Assembly (NCBI GenBank): GCA_029933125.1
Contig: JAOZOU010000011.1
Location: 1 to 48,563 of the forward strand
Length of the DNA stretch: 48,563 nt
Direction: 5' to 3'
DNA from: a bacterium
Lineage (GTDB): Bacteria > Arandabacterota > Arandabacteria > Arandabacterales > Arandabacteraceae
The position numbers and the translations under genes were made by a program. The notes beneath the pieces are model-generated. The model saw nothing but the letters and a program-made list of their open reading frames with translations. It made no database searches and was not told where the DNA came from. Numbering within the stretch: position 1 is the first letter of the stretch; every line of letters starts with the position of its first letter. Shown here in pieces: positions 38,359-44,226 of this stretch.

Positions 38359-38778
38359 ATGAGCCCAGTAAGAGTTAGGATCTCAAGAGACAAAGTGCGC
38401 AGTGATTTCGTGCGCCTCGTAAACGAGATAAGCGGTCAGAACGTCCTCAACTGTTACCAATGTGGACGCTGCTCGGCTGGCTGTCCGTTGACCTTCGCGA
38501 TGGACATTCTTCCAAGCCAGGTTATAAGACTTGTCCAGCTCGGACTTGAGGAAGAAGCTCTAGGTACGAATACACCTTGGGTTTGCGCCTCATGTATGAC
38601 TTGCTTTGCAAGGTGTCCTAGAGGTGTCGATCTTGCCAAGGTTATGGAGGCTTTGAGGGCAATAAAGCTGCGACCCGGTGACGCAGACAGAATCAGGCTG
38701 AATCAATTCCCACGGGAAGCTCTGGCGAGACTACCTCAGCAAGGGCTTGTCAGTGGCCTTCGTAAGTTTACTGGATAG
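38359..38778 (+). CDS. hdrC: HdrC-like heterodisulfide reductase iron-sulfur subunit
   Basis: 139 residues, ATG behind GGGGGAGAA. Two complete 4Fe-4S motifs: C32-x2-C35-x2-C38-x3-C42 and C76-x2-C79-x2-C82-x3-C86 (NCYQCGRCSAGCPLTF and VCASCMTCFARCPRG). The spacing and the short alpha-helical frame match HdrC, which passes electrons between HdrA and HdrB. Cytoplasmic, with no membrane segment. First gene of a five-gene operon, with gaps of 24, 16, 21 and 20 bp. Confidence 0.92.
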   Translation: MSPVRVRISRDKVRSDFVRLVNEISGQNVLNCYQCGRCSAGCPLTFAMDILPSQVIRLVQLGLEEEALGTNTPWVCASCMTCFARCPRGVDLAKVMEALRAIKLRPGDADRIRLNQFPREALARLPQQGLVSGLRKFTG

Positions 38779-38802
38779 CATGTTGAGGCTGAGGAGGGCA
38801 AG

Positions 38803-39720
38803 ATGGAGATAGCTTACTTTCCTGGCTGTACCCTCAGGACTAAAGCCATCGGTTTTGACAATTCGGTTAGGGATACAGCTAAAGTTTTCGGTTATGATCT
38901 TGTTGAAGTCCCTGACTGGACATGTTGTGGCGCCACTTTTAACCTCTCAGTTGACAATGTTATGGCTCTTGCTCCTCCGATCCGAATCCTTGCCAATGCA
39001 AGAAAGTTAGGTAATGAGGTTATTACCGTTTGCTCAGGATGCTACAATGTTCTTAAACGTGCCAACTACACAGTCAGAAATGATTCGGAGAAGCTTGCAA
39101 AGATAACAGACTTCATTGAAATGGAATATGATGGAGATGTAGAAGTAATTCATTATCTTGAATTCCTCAGAGATAGGGTTGGATATGAAACGATAAAGAC
39201 TAACATCAAACGCAATCTTGAAGGACTCAAAGTTGTTCCCTACTACGGGTGTCAGCTCTTGAGACCATATGATGAAATCCAGCTAGACGATCCTGAGGCA
39301 CCGACCATTCTGGATGAAGTCCTTGATGCTATGGGATGCACTGTTGTCGATTTTCCCCATAAGGCTGAATGCTGCGGCAATTTTCTATCTGTGTGCACAG
39401 ATCTTACACCTGAAGGACGCCAGGCAGTTGGCGAGGAAGCAGCGACTGCTGTAAGTGAATGTTCCTTCACCATACTTGATGCTGCAGCCAGAGCAGGGGC
39501 TGATCTCGTTGCACTATCCTGTCCACTCTGTCTATACAATCTTGACGTTGCTCAAGATCAAATAGAGAAGATTCACTTTGGCTTTCGAAAGATGCCCATT
39601 GTCTATTTCAGCCAATTGCTTGCGATTGCACTCGGTCTGGACACTGACAAGTACGCTCTCGATAGTGAGCACCACTTTGTCGATCCTTCAGCAGTTGTGC
39701 GATCGGTAGCTAAAGAATGA
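38803..39720 (+). CDS. hdrB: HdrB-like heterodisulfide reductase catalytic subunit
   Basis: 305 residues, ATG behind GAGGAGGG. Two CCG modules that in methanogen HdrB hold the noncubane 4Fe-4S clusters. Module 1: C9, C41-C42, C77, C80 (CX31-CC-X34-CX2C). Module 2: C150, C190-C191, C240, C243 (CX39-CC-X48-CX2C). The second CC-to-CxxC distance is about 12 residues longer than the usual 35-36. HdrB reduces a disulfide; the physiological disulfide in bacteria is generally unknown. It lies between hdrC and hdrA. Confidence 0.93.
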   Translation: MEIAYFPGCTLRTKAIGFDNSVRDTAKVFGYDLVEVPDWTCCGATFNLSVDNVMALAPPIRILANARKLGNEVITVCSGCYNVLKRANYTVRNDSEKLAKITDFIEMEYDGDVEVIHYLEFLRDRVGYETIKTNIKRNLEGLKVVPYYGCQLLRPYDEIQLDDPEAPTILDEVLDAMGCTVVDFPHKAECCGNFLSVCTDLTPEGRQAVGEEAATAVSECSFTILDAAARAGADLVALSCPLCLYNLDVAQDQIEKIHFGFRKMPIVYFSQLLAIALGLDTDKYALDSEHHFVDPSAVVRSVAKE

Positions 39721-39736
39721 TGTGCGAGGTGGCCAA

Positions 39737-41710
39737 ATGAAGCGCATAGGGGTTTTCGTCTGTTGGTGTGGATCCAACATTGCAAGTACAGTTGATGTGG
39801 GACGGGTTGTAGAGGAGGCTGGCAAGCTCCCTGGCGTTGTGCATGCTGAGGATTACAAGTATCTGTGTTCTGATCCGGGACAGAACATCGTCCAGAAGGC
39901 GATAGAGGACTACAGCCTTGATGCCGTCGTGATAAGTGCGTGCACCCCGAGTCTGCATGAGCCTACGTTCAGAAAGGCTGTAGAGATGAAGGGTATGAAT
40001 CCCTATCAGTGTGAGATAGCCAATATACGTGAGCAATGTAGTTGGGTCCATGAGGATAAGGAAGCAGCAACCGAGAAAGCTATTAAGATCATCCGTAGCA
40101 TTGTTGAGAAGGTAAGAAGAAATGAGTCGCTCGAACCCATCACGGCACCTCTCACCAAGCGTGCCCTTGTGATTGGAGCTGGCATAAGCGGCATCCAAGC
40201 TGCTCTTGACATTGCAAATTCCGGCTATGAGGTCTTGCTTGTTGAGAAGCAACCATCCATTGGTGGACACATGGCTCAGCTTTCTGAAACCTTCCCGACT
40301 CTGGATTGCTCCCAGTGTATCTTGACTCCCAAGATGGTTGAGGTGAGCCGCCATCCCAAGATAAGACTTCTAACCTACAGTGAAGTCCTTGAGATCAGTG
40401 GCTTCCTTGGCAATTTCAATGTCAAAATTCTTAAGAAGCCACGCTATGTTGATGAAACGCTTTGCAACAGCTGCGGTGAGTGCAGTGAAGTTTGCCCCGT
40501 TGTCGTTCCGAATGAATTCGAGCGTGGGCTGAGCTCGCGCCACGCTATATATGTTCCATTCCCGCAGGCGGTCCCCTCAGTCTATACCCTTGATGCTGAA
40601 GCATGTTTGGGGCTTTTCCCACTTGCCTGTGAGAAGTGCAGCAAGGTTTGTGAGACAAATGCCATCAACTACGACATGGAACCAGAGATTATAGAGGAAA
40701 CGGTTGGTGCTGTTGTGGTTGCAACCGGTTACGATCTTTACCCGATAGATGAGATAAAGGAATATGGCAATGGCAAGATCCCTGATGTGATTGACGGTCT
40801 TCATTTTGAGCGTCTGCTTTCGGCTTCAGGTCCAACGGAGGGTGTCGTCAGAAGACCATCTGATCACAAGATTCCAAAGGAAGTGGTCTTTGTTCAGTGT
40901 GCAGGCTCAAGGGATACTGAACGAGGTAAGCCGTATTGCTCAAAGATCTGCTGTATGTACACGGCAAAGCATGCGATGCTTTACAAACATAAGGTGCCTG
41001 ATGGTCAAGCCTATATCTTCTATATAGATGTAAGGGCTGGTGGAAAGGGCTATGAGGAGTTCTACCAGCGCGGCATTGAGGAGGATGGTACAGTTTATCT
41101 GCGTGGAAAGGTCTCAAGGATTTTCCAAGACGGTGACAAGGTCATTGTCTGGGGATCTGACACGTTGACAGGCAAGAAGATCGAGATTGCAGCCGACATG
41201 GTCGTTCTGGCAGCACCGATAGTGCCGTGTGAGGGCAGTGATGATCTCGCGCGAAGGCTCAAGATTCAGACAGATGCAAATGGATTCCTTTCAGAGGTTC
41301 ATCCCAAGCTCAGACCGGTCGAGAGCATCACTGCGGGATTCTTCCTGGCTGGAGCCGGGCAGGCTCCAAAGGACATACCTGAAGCGGTTGCTCAGGCAAG
41401 CGGGGCGGCCAGCAAGGTTGTTGCTCTGTTTGCCAACGATGTCGTTGAGCATGATCCGATGATAGTAGGGGTAACCGAAGATATGTGTAGTGGCTGTGGT
41501 GTCTGTGTTGGCGTATGCCCATTTGGTGCTAGGGAACTTGATACTGAAAGAAAGAAGGTTAAGGTTCTTGAAGTGCTCTGTGAAGGCTGTGGCGCTTGCA
41601 GCGCAGCCTGTCCAACAGGTGCAGCTCAGCAGAGAAATCTTAATGATGAACAGTTGACAAGTATGGTTGGGGCAACTCTCGCCGAAGCCTTAGAGGGCTC
41701 GGACTCTTAA
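39737..41710 (+). CDS. hdrA: HdrA-like flavin- and iron-sulfur subunit
   Basis: 657 residues. The ATG at 39737 follows GAGGTGG by 4 bases and gives the family's usual opening KRIGVFVCWCG. The thioredoxin-reductase-like FAD domain has VIGAGISGIQAALDIA (145-152 for the glycine motif) and EKQPSIGGHMAQL. Cluster motifs lie at C243/246/249/253, C290/298/301/305 and in two C-terminal ferredoxin units (CSGCGVCVGVCPFGA and CEGCGACSAACPTGA). In methanogens HdrA performs flavin-based bifurcation. No MvhD, Flox or hydrogenase gene is next to it, so its electron partner is unknown. Confidence 0.93.
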   Translation: MKRIGVFVCWCGSNIASTVDVGRVVEEAGKLPGVVHAEDYKYLCSDPGQNIVQKAIEDYSLDAVVISACTPSLHEPTFRKAVEMKGMNPYQCEIANIREQCSWVHEDKEAATEKAIKIIRSIVEKVRRNESLEPITAPLTKRALVIGAGISGIQAALDIANSGYEVLLVEKQPSIGGHMAQLSETFPTLDCSQCILTPKMVEVSRHPKIRLLTYSEVLEISGFLGNFNVKILKKPRYVDETLCNSCGECSEVCPVVVPNEFERGLSSRHAIYVPFPQAVPSVYTLDAEACLGLFPLACEKCSKVCETNAINYDMEPEIIEETVGAVVVATGYDLYPIDEIKEYGNGKIPDVIDGLHFERLLSASGPTEGVVRRPSDHKIPKEVVFVQCAGSRDTERGKPYCSKICCMYTAKHAMLYKHKVPDGQAYIFYIDVRAGGKGYEEFYQRGIEEDGTVYLRGKVSRIFQDGDKVIVWGSDTLTGKKIEIAADMVVLAAPIVPCEGSDDLARRLKIQTDANGFLSEVHPKLRPVESITAGFFLAGAGQAPKDIPEAVAQASGAASKVVALFANDVVEHDPMIVGVTEDMCSGCGVCVGVCPFGARELDTERKKVKVLEVLCEGCGACSAACPTGAAQQRNLNDEQLTSMVGATLAEALEGSDS

Positions 41711-41731
41711 TAGGAGAAGGTGAGGTAAGCC

Positions 41732-42541
41732 ATGGCTGAGAAGAAAGCAAGTAAGAGGTCAAAGAAGGGATCGAAAGCATCGGGTCAAGCTTCACTGGGC
41801 TCAACTGCAGTTGCTGAGCCGAGAACCGAGATGGTCAGAATCTACATTATGGGGAAGCAGTATGAGGTTCCCAAAGGCTTGACTATTCAGAAGGCACTTG
41901 AGTATGCGGGTATGCGCCTTCTGAGAGGATGTGGTTGTCGAGGTGGCTTCTGCGGTGCGTGCGGGACGGTTTACAGGACAGAGGGTGACTATAAGCTCAA
42001 AGTCGCACTTGCCTGCCAAACGGTCGTTGAGGATGGAATGTATCTTACGCAGATACCCTTCTATCCCGCCAATAAAGCGACCTATGACCTTGAGAAGCTC
42101 ACACCATCCCTTGAAGCAATTGTCGAGAACTACCCCGAAGTGATGAGATGTGTGCAGTGTAATACATGCAGGAAGGTCTGCCCTCAGGACTTAGAGGTAA
42201 TGCAATATATTGCAGCGGCAATGCGTGGGGATATAGCTCGGCTGGCTGACCTTTCTTTTGATTGCATAATGTGTGGTCTCTGTGCAAGCAGATGCCCTGG
42301 AGAGCTTGTTCAGTACTATATCGCTATTCTCGGTCGAAGACTCTACGGCAAGTATATGATGCCCAAGGCTAAGCATCTTGCTGAGCGGCTTGAAGAGATA
42401 GAGCAGGGCAAGTTTGACCAAGAGATTGAAGAACTCATGAAGATGAGCAAGGAGGATCTTAAACGCCTCTACGATTCACGAGATATTGAGCCAGAAGAGG
42501 AGTTGGGAGAAGCATTAAGAGTAGGTGAAATTAATGACTGA
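41732..42541 (+). CDS. SdhB/FrdB-like iron-sulfur subunit
   Basis: 269 residues, ATG behind GGTGAGG. A Lys/Ser-rich leader of about 32 residues precedes a plant-type 2Fe-2S domain (C69, C74, C77 and C95; GCRGGFCGACG). Then come two 4Fe-4S motifs, C140/143/146/150 and C178/181/184/188. Both have full C-x2-C-x2-C-x3-C spacing, whereas classical SdhB/FrdB carries one 3Fe-4S site. No membrane-anchor partner is encoded nearby. It probably carries electrons between the flavoprotein and HdrABC, like the C-terminal-CCG-containing TfrB of methanogens but with the CCG protein supplied by HdrB. A charged tail of about 50 residues follows. Confidence 0.85.
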   Translation: MAEKKASKRSKKGSKASGQASLGSTAVAEPRTEMVRIYIMGKQYEVPKGLTIQKALEYAGMRLLRGCGCRGGFCGACGTVYRTEGDYKLKVALACQTVVEDGMYLTQIPFYPANKATYDLEKLTPSLEAIVENYPEVMRCVQCNTCRKVCPQDLEVMQYIAAAMRGDIARLADLSFDCIMCGLCASRCPGELVQYYIAILGRRLYGKYMMPKAKHLAERLEEIEQGKFDQEIEELMKMSKEDLKRLYDSRDIEPEEELGEALRVGEIND

Positions 42542-42561
42542 TAGATTGAGGAGGAAGTAAG

Positions 42562-44226
42562 ATGCCAATCCAGCCAGGAGTCGATCCTTATCCTGATTAC
42601 ATGAGAGAATCCATCAAGAAGGTCGAAGCCACTCGCTCCCAGAGAATACATCAGGACTATCCGATGCTGAGTGCTGATGAGAAGACCGAGCTGCTTAAGA
42701 AGTATCACCCCGATCACAAGGAGGGGCAACTGGTTGAGATAAAGGTGGGACCGAGCAAAGGTGAGAAGACCTTCAAAGAGGTGGAACGCATAATACAGGC
42801 ATATAGCCGTGTCGATCCTGAATCCTTTGATCTTTCCCAGATCGACTACGATGTGGATGTGCTCGTTATCGGTGGAGGTGGAGGTGGTTCGTCGGCTGCG
42901 CTTCTTGCGCATGAGGCGGGTGCCAAGGTCTTGATGGTTACAAAGCTCAGACTTGGTGATGCCAATACCATGATGGCTCAGGGCGGAATACAGGCGGCAG
43001 ACAAGAAGACCGATAGCCCATCGAGGCACTTTCTGGACGTTATTGGTGGCGGAGGCTATTACAATTTCCCTGAGCTCGTGAGAGCACTCGTTCTCGATGC
43101 GCCCTATGTGATGGATTGGCTTCAGAACTTGGGGACGATGTTTGATAAAGAAGAGGACGGAACCTACATAACCATTCATGGCGGGGGTACTTCGCGCAAG
43201 CGCATGCACGCCGCACGCGATTACAGTGGCGCAGAGATAATGCGGACACTGAGAGATGAGGTGAGAAATCGAGGCATTGAAGTTCTTGAATTTACCTCAG
43301 CCATCGAGTTGCTCAAGGACGATAAGGGTCAGTGCGCAGGTGCCATACTATACAACATGGAAACTGAGGAGCACTTCGTATGTCGTGCCAAAACAACCAT
43401 CATAGCAACGGGTGGTGCTGGGAGATTGCACGTGCAGGGATTCCCCACAACGAACCATTACGGTGCCACAGCTGATGGGCTTGTACTTGCCTACCGAGCA
43501 GGCGCTCCTTTCGTATATATGGATGCTATCCAGTATCATCCAACCGGTGCAGCCTATCCTGAGCAGATCCTTGGACTGCTCGTTACTGAGAAGGTAAGAG
43601 GTCTCGGTGCACAGGTGGTAAATGTTGATGGTGAGCAGTTTGTCTATCCTCTTGAAACCCGGGATGTCGAGTCAGCTGCCATAATCAGAGAATGTAGGGA
43701 GCGTAACAAGGGCGTTGTGACACCTACGGGAATGGTAGGTGTCTGGCTTGACTCACCACTCATTGAGCTCAAGCATGGCAAGGGCACAATTAAGCGCATG
43801 CTGCCAGCGATGGTGCGACAGTATGAGCGATGCAACATAGACATGACGAAGGATCCCATCCTTATCTATCCGACTCAGCATTATCAGAATGGCGGCATAA
43901 AGATAAATGCGGATTCTGAAAGCGAAGTTCCCAACCTCTTTGTAGCAGGGGAGGCATCTGGCGGTGTGCACGGAAGGAATCGCCTTATGGGCAACTCTTT
44001 GCTTGACATTCTCGTCTTCGGGCGGAGAGCCGGTCGCAATGCAGCCGCAAGAGCAAAGCAGACGAAGGTGGGCAAGCTCACCCTTGAGCACGTTGTAGCC
44101 TATCATGAGGAGCTCAGAAAGGCTGGAATACCTGAGGATCGCATATCACCGATGCTCTTGCCAGACTATAGGCGACCTGAGACAAAGGAGCGCCAGAAAG
44201 GACAGATTCCGCTCGGCAGAGTCTGA
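42562..44226 (+). CDS. SdhA/FrdA-like flavoprotein subunit, atypical ends
   Basis: 554 residues, ATG behind GAGGAGG. The FAD motif VLVIGGGGGGSSAALLAHEA starts near residue 100. The family's substrate loop QYHPTG, HGRNRLMGNSLLDILVFGRR and RDVESAAI are present, consistent with fumarate reduction or succinate oxidation. Two features are odd: about 95 residues precede the FAD domain (typical is under 20), and the protein ends about 65 residues after the LVFGRRAG motif, so the C-terminal helical domain with its ESRG motif is missing. It may act on fumarate, succinate or a related dicarboxylate. Last gene of the hdr operon. Confidence 0.85.
   Translation: MPIQPGVDPYPDYMRESIKKVEATRSQRIHQDYPMLSADEKTELLKKYHPDHKEGQLVEIKVGPSKGEKTFKEVERIIQAYSRVDPESFDLSQIDYDVDVLVIGGGGGGSSAALLAHEAGAKVLMVTKLRLGDANTMMAQGGIQAADKKTDSPSRHFLDVIGGGGYYNFPELVRALVLDAPYVMDWLQNLGTMFDKEEDGTYITIHGGGTSRKRMHAARDYSGAEIMRTLRDEVRNRGIEVLEFTSAIELLKDDKGQCAGAILYNMETEEHFVCRAKTTIIATGGAGRLHVQGFPTTNHYGATADGLVLAYRAGAPFVYMDAIQYHPTGAAYPEQILGLLVTEKVRGLGAQVVNVDGEQFVYPLETRDVESAAIIRECRERNKGVVTPTGMVGVWLDSPLIELKHGKGTIKRMLPAMVRQYERCNIDMTKDPILIYPTQHYQNGGIKINADSESEVPNLFVAGEASGGVHGRNRLMGNSLLDILVFGRRAGRNAAARAKQTKVGKLTLEHVVAYHEELRKAGIPEDRISPMLLPDYRRPETKERQKGQIPLGRV

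Follow-up and report, generated by a model that had tools for sequence, protein, structure and literature searches.

A run of five genes that may encode a soluble fumarate reductase coupled to Hdr proteins was analysed in a metagenome-assembled genome (MAG) of an uncultured anaerobe of the Arandabacteraceae (GenBank assembly GCA_029933125.1). The stretch of DNA studied, hereafter the window, comprises 48,563 nucleotides (contig JAOZOU010000011.1, positions 1 to 48,563). The list of open reading frames (ORFs) with translations places five plus-strand ORFs at 38359-44226, namely hdrC, hdrB, hdrA, an frdB-like and an frdA-like gene (Table 1). They are separated by 24, 16, 21 and 20 bp in this order, and each start is preceded by a purine-rich site resembling a ribosome-binding site (GGAGGG for hdrB, GAGGAGG for frdA). 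The ORF list begins hdrA at GTG 39722; the ATG at 39737 sits behind GAGGTGG. An initial annotation, made from the sequence alone, had described five genes in one direction with gaps of 16-24 bp and ribosome sites, and the ORF coordinates and the inspection of the start sites agree with it. It had also reported no membrane anchor and no hydrogenase gene. Indeed, neither a membrane anchor or hydrogenase gene nor MvhD or Flx was found within or adjoining the run. Its assignments to HdrC, HdrB, HdrA, FrdB-like and FrdA-like families were borne out by Pfam and NCBIfam domain matches.

Table 1. Genes of the Hdr-Frd run, with window coordinates and main sequence features
Gene	Position	Strand	Product and features
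hdrC	38359..38778	+	139 aa; two [4Fe-4S] motifs (C32,35,38,42 and C76,79,82,86); Pfam Fer4_9
hdrB	38803..39720	+	305 aa; two CCG (noncubane cluster) motifs, both complete; Pfam CCG x2
hdrA	39737..41710	+	657 aa; flavin adenine dinucleotide (FAD)/thioredoxin-reductase core and ferredoxin domains; no MvhD fusion
frdB-like	41732..42541	+	269 aa; 2Fe-2S C69,74,77,95; [4Fe-4S] C140,143,146,150 and C178,181,184,188
frdA-like flavoprotein	42562..44226	+	554 aa; Pfam FAD_binding_2; fumarate-reductase FAD and capping domains

The arrangement is conserved. The same gene order is present in two other genomes (G003, G004) of the same family or order, and the shorter contigs of four more (G001, G002, G005, G006) agree with it. 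The five-gene block recurs with identical neighbours in two other genera of the host family (L063, L064), and a Fibrobacterota MAG (L074) has exactly this HdrCBA-FrdBA order as well. The search for this order, which the initial annotation had proposed, thus found it across the host's family and beyond, well past one genome. Chance adjacency of the five genes is ruled out by this synteny.

A scan of 84,980 genomes for FrdA gave at least 589 confirmed loci, and the counts reported here rest on the best 80 of these. They cover about 12 phyla. Bacillota account for 61 loci; the rest belong to Chloroflexota, Spirochaetota, Atribacterota, Fibrobacterota, Cloacimonadota, Latescibacterota, WOR-3 and three archaeal phyla. 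FrdB adjoins FrdA in 79 of the 80 loci. Within about 10 kb of FrdA, an hdr gene is found in 61 loci and a fumarase gene in 55, these neighbour counts not being independent because gut Clostridia dominate the set. Where at least 9 kb of upstream sequence was available, hdrA, hdrB and hdrC were all present in 46 of 55 loci. Genes for malic enzyme, succinyl-CoA ligase and 2-oxoacid oxidoreductase also recur beside FrdA of this clade.

Several architectures can be distinguished. In gut Clostridia, the locus comprises malate or lactate dehydrogenase, fumarase, HdrBCA, MvhD, FlxCBA, FrdBA and an AspT-like transporter. An antiporter gene of the AspT/YidE family lies just 3' of frdA or fumB in clostridial loci such as L095, L112, L122 and L126; it is likely a succinate or C4-dicarboxylate exporter. 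The order HdrCBA-MvhD-FrdBA is found in four loci (L055, L219, L223, L226), including the lineage nearest to that of the window in the tree. HdrCB-FrdBA occurs in three (L071, L072, L103). Finally, FrdBA is accompanied by fumarase, and in several cases by malic enzyme, with no hdr gene nearby in Syntrophomonadaceae and in L141 and L115. Among the loci examined, the window operon is the smallest version that contains hdrABC.

An independent sample was built from HdrB, which was searched in 290 genomes across bacterial families, and 40 loci were fetched. FrdBA adjoins 9 of the 22 most window-like HdrB genes and none of the 20 less similar ones (Fisher p ~0.001), with the host's own family excluded, the similarity cut placed post hoc and some contigs ending near the gene. 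The co-occurrence of window-type HdrB with FrdBA fits a contact between HdrB and FrdB, comparable to the TfrB fusion. In three loci (L218, L221, L230), fumarase subunits are encoded directly 5' of HdrC-HdrB-HdrA, with no FrdBA in the stretch examined. These fumarase-HdrCBA loci are a further tie of window-type HdrB to C4 acids.

The Hdr subunits appear complete in their cofactor ligands. HdrC is of the Fer4 dicluster type and scores 65 bits against TIGR03290 (CoB_CoM_SS_C), under the cut-off; its eight cluster cysteines are all kept in 59 of 59 Hdr/Frd-linked HdrC proteins. HdrB reaches 169 bits with the NCBIfam model SdhE and 165 bits with HdrB, both under the cut-off. It matches the solved methanogen HdrB (E 4e-40), and its 10 ligand cysteines are retained in 61-62 of 62 aligned sequences. 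The best families for HdrA are HdrA2 and HdrA, with 828 bits for NCBIfam HdrA2, and it matches the solved methanogen HdrA across residues 3-650 (E 7e-219). Residues E358 and K411, numbered from ATG 39737, correspond to E356 and K409 of HdrA from Methanothermococcus thermolithotrophicus, which were used in published work to separate bifurcating from non-bifurcating flavins. Equivalents are present in all 57 rows of the HdrA alignment (56 from FrdA loci and the copy on contig C120 of the same genome). By this residue test, the window HdrA groups with bifurcating type I HdrA and may split electrons. As for the bifurcation suggested in the initial annotation, the residues linked to it are intact, while the activity itself stays a prediction.

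The FrdB-like protein has 12 cluster cysteines, all invariant across 31 family members. Its second and third clusters are both of the four-cysteine [4Fe-4S] type, and it lacks the [3Fe-4S] motif known from complex II. An AlphaFold2 model reached a mean predicted local distance difference test (pLDDT) score of 82, and the fold search returned partial ferredoxin-domain matches only. The FrdA-like protein carries an N-terminal extension of about 95 aa that is conserved in its clade, and the Pfam search gave no match to PF02910, the C-terminal domain of SdhA. Asparagine N135 occupies the position of the histidine that binds FAD covalently in complex II. The catalytic residues are H326, T328, E343, R346, R367, H440 and R474; across 38 clade members, the positions that align with the SdhA/FrdA catalytic residues show little or no variation. 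The AlphaFold2 model (pLDDT 90) has Sdh1, Escherichia coli FrdA and flavocytochrome c3 as its nearest folds in the PDB, and its family shares about 30-38% identity with fumarate reductases and L-aspartate oxidases of solved structure. In the tree, the family forms a single clade (SH-aLRT 100) separate from SdhA- and NadB-type proteins. With its N-terminal extension, the lack of PF02910 and hdrABC in the operon, the window FrdA belongs to a clade of Hdr-linked, soluble FrdBA. Fumarate and succinate are the likely substrate pair because fumarase genes recur beside the same FrdBA family. The initial annotation had named this pair as well, and the recurrent fumarase neighbours, together with the intact catalytic and cluster residues, predict it.

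Fumarate reduction is classically linked to membranes and quinones. The best explanation for the window, held with modest confidence, is that hdrC-hdrB-hdrA-frdB-frdA are one operon and encode a soluble fumarate reductase that needs no quinone and receives its electrons from an electron-bifurcating HdrABC. We infer the complex, its donor, its direction and the bifurcation from these data; a single soluble complex of the five proteins is also what the initial annotation had predicted. FrdA would convert fumarate into succinate, using an FAD that is not covalently bound. FrdB would connect FrdA with HdrB, a link suggested by the fusion of FrdB and CCG parts in TfrB, and HdrB and HdrC would link on to HdrA. 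Electrons would be split at the FAD of HdrA. The high-potential electron would reach fumarate by way of HdrC, HdrB, FrdB and FrdA, and the ferredoxin domains of HdrA would pass the low-potential one to ferredoxin. The donor would most likely be NAD(P)H, acting directly at HdrA or via MvhD/Flx encoded elsewhere in the genome. With NADH, the net reaction would be 2 NADH + fumarate + 2 Fd(ox) -> succinate + 2 Fd(red), where Fd is ferredoxin; under standard conditions it is computed to yield an estimated -33 to -49 kJ/mol. Activity with NADH was reported for HdrA of the complexes in Moorella and Sporomusa (PMC9430772). Blautia luti, whose congeners carry the clade operon (L088, L114) and whose own FrdA may belong to the same family, was described as having strong fumarate reductase activity and transcribing frdAB at a high level. 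A narrower version, in which the five subunits HdrCBA-FrdBA bifurcate without MvhD/Flx while NAD(P)H or another carrier feeds the HdrA flavin directly, is possible but doubtful.

Electrons normally reach HdrA through MvhD. The main difficulty for the bifurcating fumarate reductase, and the first of several points that weigh against it, is the lack of MvhD/Flx in the operon, though the nearest lineages (L055, L219) do have MvhD. Moreover, most HdrA proteins keep E356/K409, so the pair is permissive and weak evidence as a specific sign of bifurcation. Members of the FrdA clade without a nearby hdr gene exist in Syntrophomonadaceae, WOR-3 and Latescibacterota, and FrdBA may therefore act without Hdr in those lineages. 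MetVF of a comparable Hdr operon was purified without Hdr subunits, with contact seen by pulldowns only (PMC9430772). Furthermore, the genome contains methylmalonyl-CoA mutase and beta-oxidation genes, which makes succinate oxidation conceivable.

Four other readings were considered. The lack of MvhD/Flx, the intact ferredoxin domains of HdrA and the existence of relatives with only HdrCB-FrdBA or FrdBA would suit a simple sink, in which electrons flow from ferredoxin (or NADH) through HdrA, HdrC, HdrB and FrdB to fumarate with no energy coupling. Such a sink is unlikely, given that the E356/K409 equivalents are universal in the alignment and that NADH-linked Flx modules accompany the relatives. 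Direct transfer from ferredoxin to fumarate would also waste about 87-103 kJ/mol in a cell that has Rnf. HdrB could instead oxidise a low-molecular-weight or protein dithiol and so reduce fumarate, or catalyse the reverse, with HdrA adding a link to ferredoxin; this corresponds to the thiol/disulfide pair suggested in the initial annotation. A thiol:fumarate reductase of this kind, in split parts, would agree with the complete CCG motifs of Frd-linked HdrB, with the joining of FrdB and HdrB in the TfrB fusion and with TfrA as the best NCBIfam match of FrdA. It is nonetheless rather improbable: CCG motifs are also present in HdrB from complexes without a known disulfide, DsrC was not found in the genome when sought as a partner of HdrB, and thiol-synthesis genes are not linked to the operon.

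The reaction could also run in the opposite direction, electrons from succinate and reduced ferredoxin being confurcated to NAD+ or another mid-potential carrier during propionate or fatty-acid oxidation. The genome encodes Etf and further Hdr proteins besides the mutase and the beta-oxidation enzymes, and quinone-free cells need a push for succinate oxidation. In known enzymes, loss of the covalent-FAD histidine, as in FrdA H44 variants, lowers succinate oxidation, and in the window protein this histidine is replaced by N135. The standard energetics (+33 to +49 kJ/mol) and the formation of succinate as a product in clostridial relatives likewise speak against this direction, which appears slightly less probable still than the thiol-dependent reaction. 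That the flavoprotein acts on aspartate or on another unsaturated acid, the fumarate reductase name being a family-level guess, is very improbable. The low identity to solved enzymes and the lack of a fumarase gene adjoining the operon in this genome would allow it. However, the genes for fumarase, malic enzyme, succinyl-CoA ligase and 2-oxoacid oxidoreductase that recur beside the clade, the conserved dicarboxylate-site residues and the separate NadB gene argue against it.

The MAG of the host is 96.7% complete. Besides two Hdr-linked copies, the only other SdhA/FrdA-type protein found in it is NadB, a separate gene on contig C141 (581 bits). A two-subunit fumarase is encoded elsewhere in the genome, and no match to MenD or MqnA/D of the menaquinone routes was obtained in the MAG. 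On contig C120 (L066:1-14046), HdrCBA-MvhD and genes resembling FlxC/B/A come shortly after an Rnf operon and make up a further, NADH-linked Flx-Hdr of this genome. The second Hdr-linked cluster, HdrA-HdrC-HdrB-FrdB-FrdA, lies on contig C76 (105149-111314; L004:2150-8315), and its HdrA carries a weak MvhD domain. Its FrdA clusters with Culexarchaeum and Thermoplasmata proteins in the tree, a grouping with archaeal members that suggests gene transfer. Contig C171 holds an HdrA-MvhD fusion on the minus strand (136149-138560; L067:6150-8561) with an in-frame TGA at codon 196, in a conserved DCSxC motif (DCSIUILGPKM). This is probably a selenocysteine HdrA. More in-frame TGA codons occur in HdrA and MvhD matches on contig C176. 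The same C171 (L068) also groups genes for methylmalonyl-CoA mutase, acyl-CoA dehydrogenase, thiolase, an HdrA-NuoE fusion, a NuoF-like protein and Etf.

Around the operon, the upstream neighbour is a tolQ/exbB-like gene on the opposite strand, as judged from its ORF translation, and the gene for elongation factor G follows frdA. Promoter and terminator scans gave site numbers not above the shuffle expectation, and no match was returned when the window was searched for tRNAs and Rfam families.

The idea of an Hdr-linked bifurcating fumarate reductase has already been proposed and is not new, and it is still biochemically unproven; the literature searched yielded no report of such a complex or of an assay for bifurcation. 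What sets the window operon apart is that it has neither MvhD nor Flx. If the proposal is true, a soluble reductase that conserves some of the energy in reduced ferredoxin would account for the benefit that anaerobes without quinones, many gut Clostridia among them, draw from making succinate. The window operon would be the simplest version to reconstitute.

TfrB of methanogens is an FrdB fused to an HdrB-like CCG protein, and Tfr uses CoM-SH and CoB-SH. TfrAB resembles the window operon as a soluble pair of an FrdA-like protein and an FrdB joined to an HdrB-like CCG protein, whereas in the window FrdB and HdrB are separate (order hdrB, hdrA, frdB) and accompanied by HdrC and HdrA. Membership in Tfr was rejected, the TfrA score being 337 bits against a cut-off of 718 and a single FrdB-CCG chain being absent. 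The initial annotation's comparison with a bacterial Tfr counterpart in split parts is apt as an analogy, but NCBIfam cut-offs and architecture place the operon outside Tfr. An HdrB-like CCG subunit beside FrdAB is also a feature of the 8-methylmenaquinol:fumarate reductase SdhABE (type E complex II). The window differs by the presence of HdrA and by a MAG in which menaquinone synthesis was not found, and this candidate was dismissed with an SdhE score of 169 against a cut-off of 500 bits. Conventional complex II (succinate:quinone or quinol:fumarate reductase) was discarded on N135 at the histidine position, the missing PF02910 and [3Fe-4S] motif, the lack of a nearby anchor gene and of a MenD or MqnA/D match. 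L-aspartate oxidase was set aside at 273 bits against the NadB cut-off of 453.

Parallels are also found among Hdr-linked clusters. The MetVF-MvhD-HdrBCA complexes of Moorella and Sporomusa (PMC9430772) also place a flavoprotein substrate module on HdrABC, with proposed bifurcation and NADH oxidation by the Hdr part, but differ in substrate and in having MvhD. In tubeworm symbionts and Thioflavicoccus, tfrAB occurs with flxABCD-hdrABC (PMC6315080, PMC11636981), and direct electron delivery was proposed for the symbionts; Cloacimonadota carry a TFR-OGOR-Mvh-Hdr cluster (PMC8542988). Compared by description, these clusters resemble the window operon in that genes for fumarate reductase lie among or next to Hdr genes. 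They differ in sitting in reverse tricarboxylic acid cycle clusters with Kor genes and in having a donor module. The nearest counterpart is Pseudoclostridium thermosuccinogenes, in which FrdBA with Flx-Hdr (the 'succinate operon') was proposed in 2019-2020 to reduce fumarate by bifurcation (Koendjbiharie and van Kranenburg 2019 preprint; PMC7282089). Both systems encode soluble FrdAB with HdrABC and would tie fumarate reduction to ferredoxin by the proposed bifurcation. The gene order described for P. thermosuccinogenes is that of clostridial loci of the same FrdA clade, from which it is presumed to belong to the same family, and the window FrdA is about 62-65% identical to clostridial members. 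In contrast to the clostridial type, the window operon has no MvhD, FlxABC, fumarase or transporter gene, and its hdr order is C-B-A instead of B-C-A. The Flx-Hdr-FrdBA 'succinate operon' type itself was rejected for the window, where MvhD and FlxABC are absent and the hdrA-frdB gap is just 21 bp. Since these earlier proposals and related clusters exist, the window operon is classed with the known FrdAB-Flx-Hdr proposal, from which it differs in lacking MvhD and Flx.

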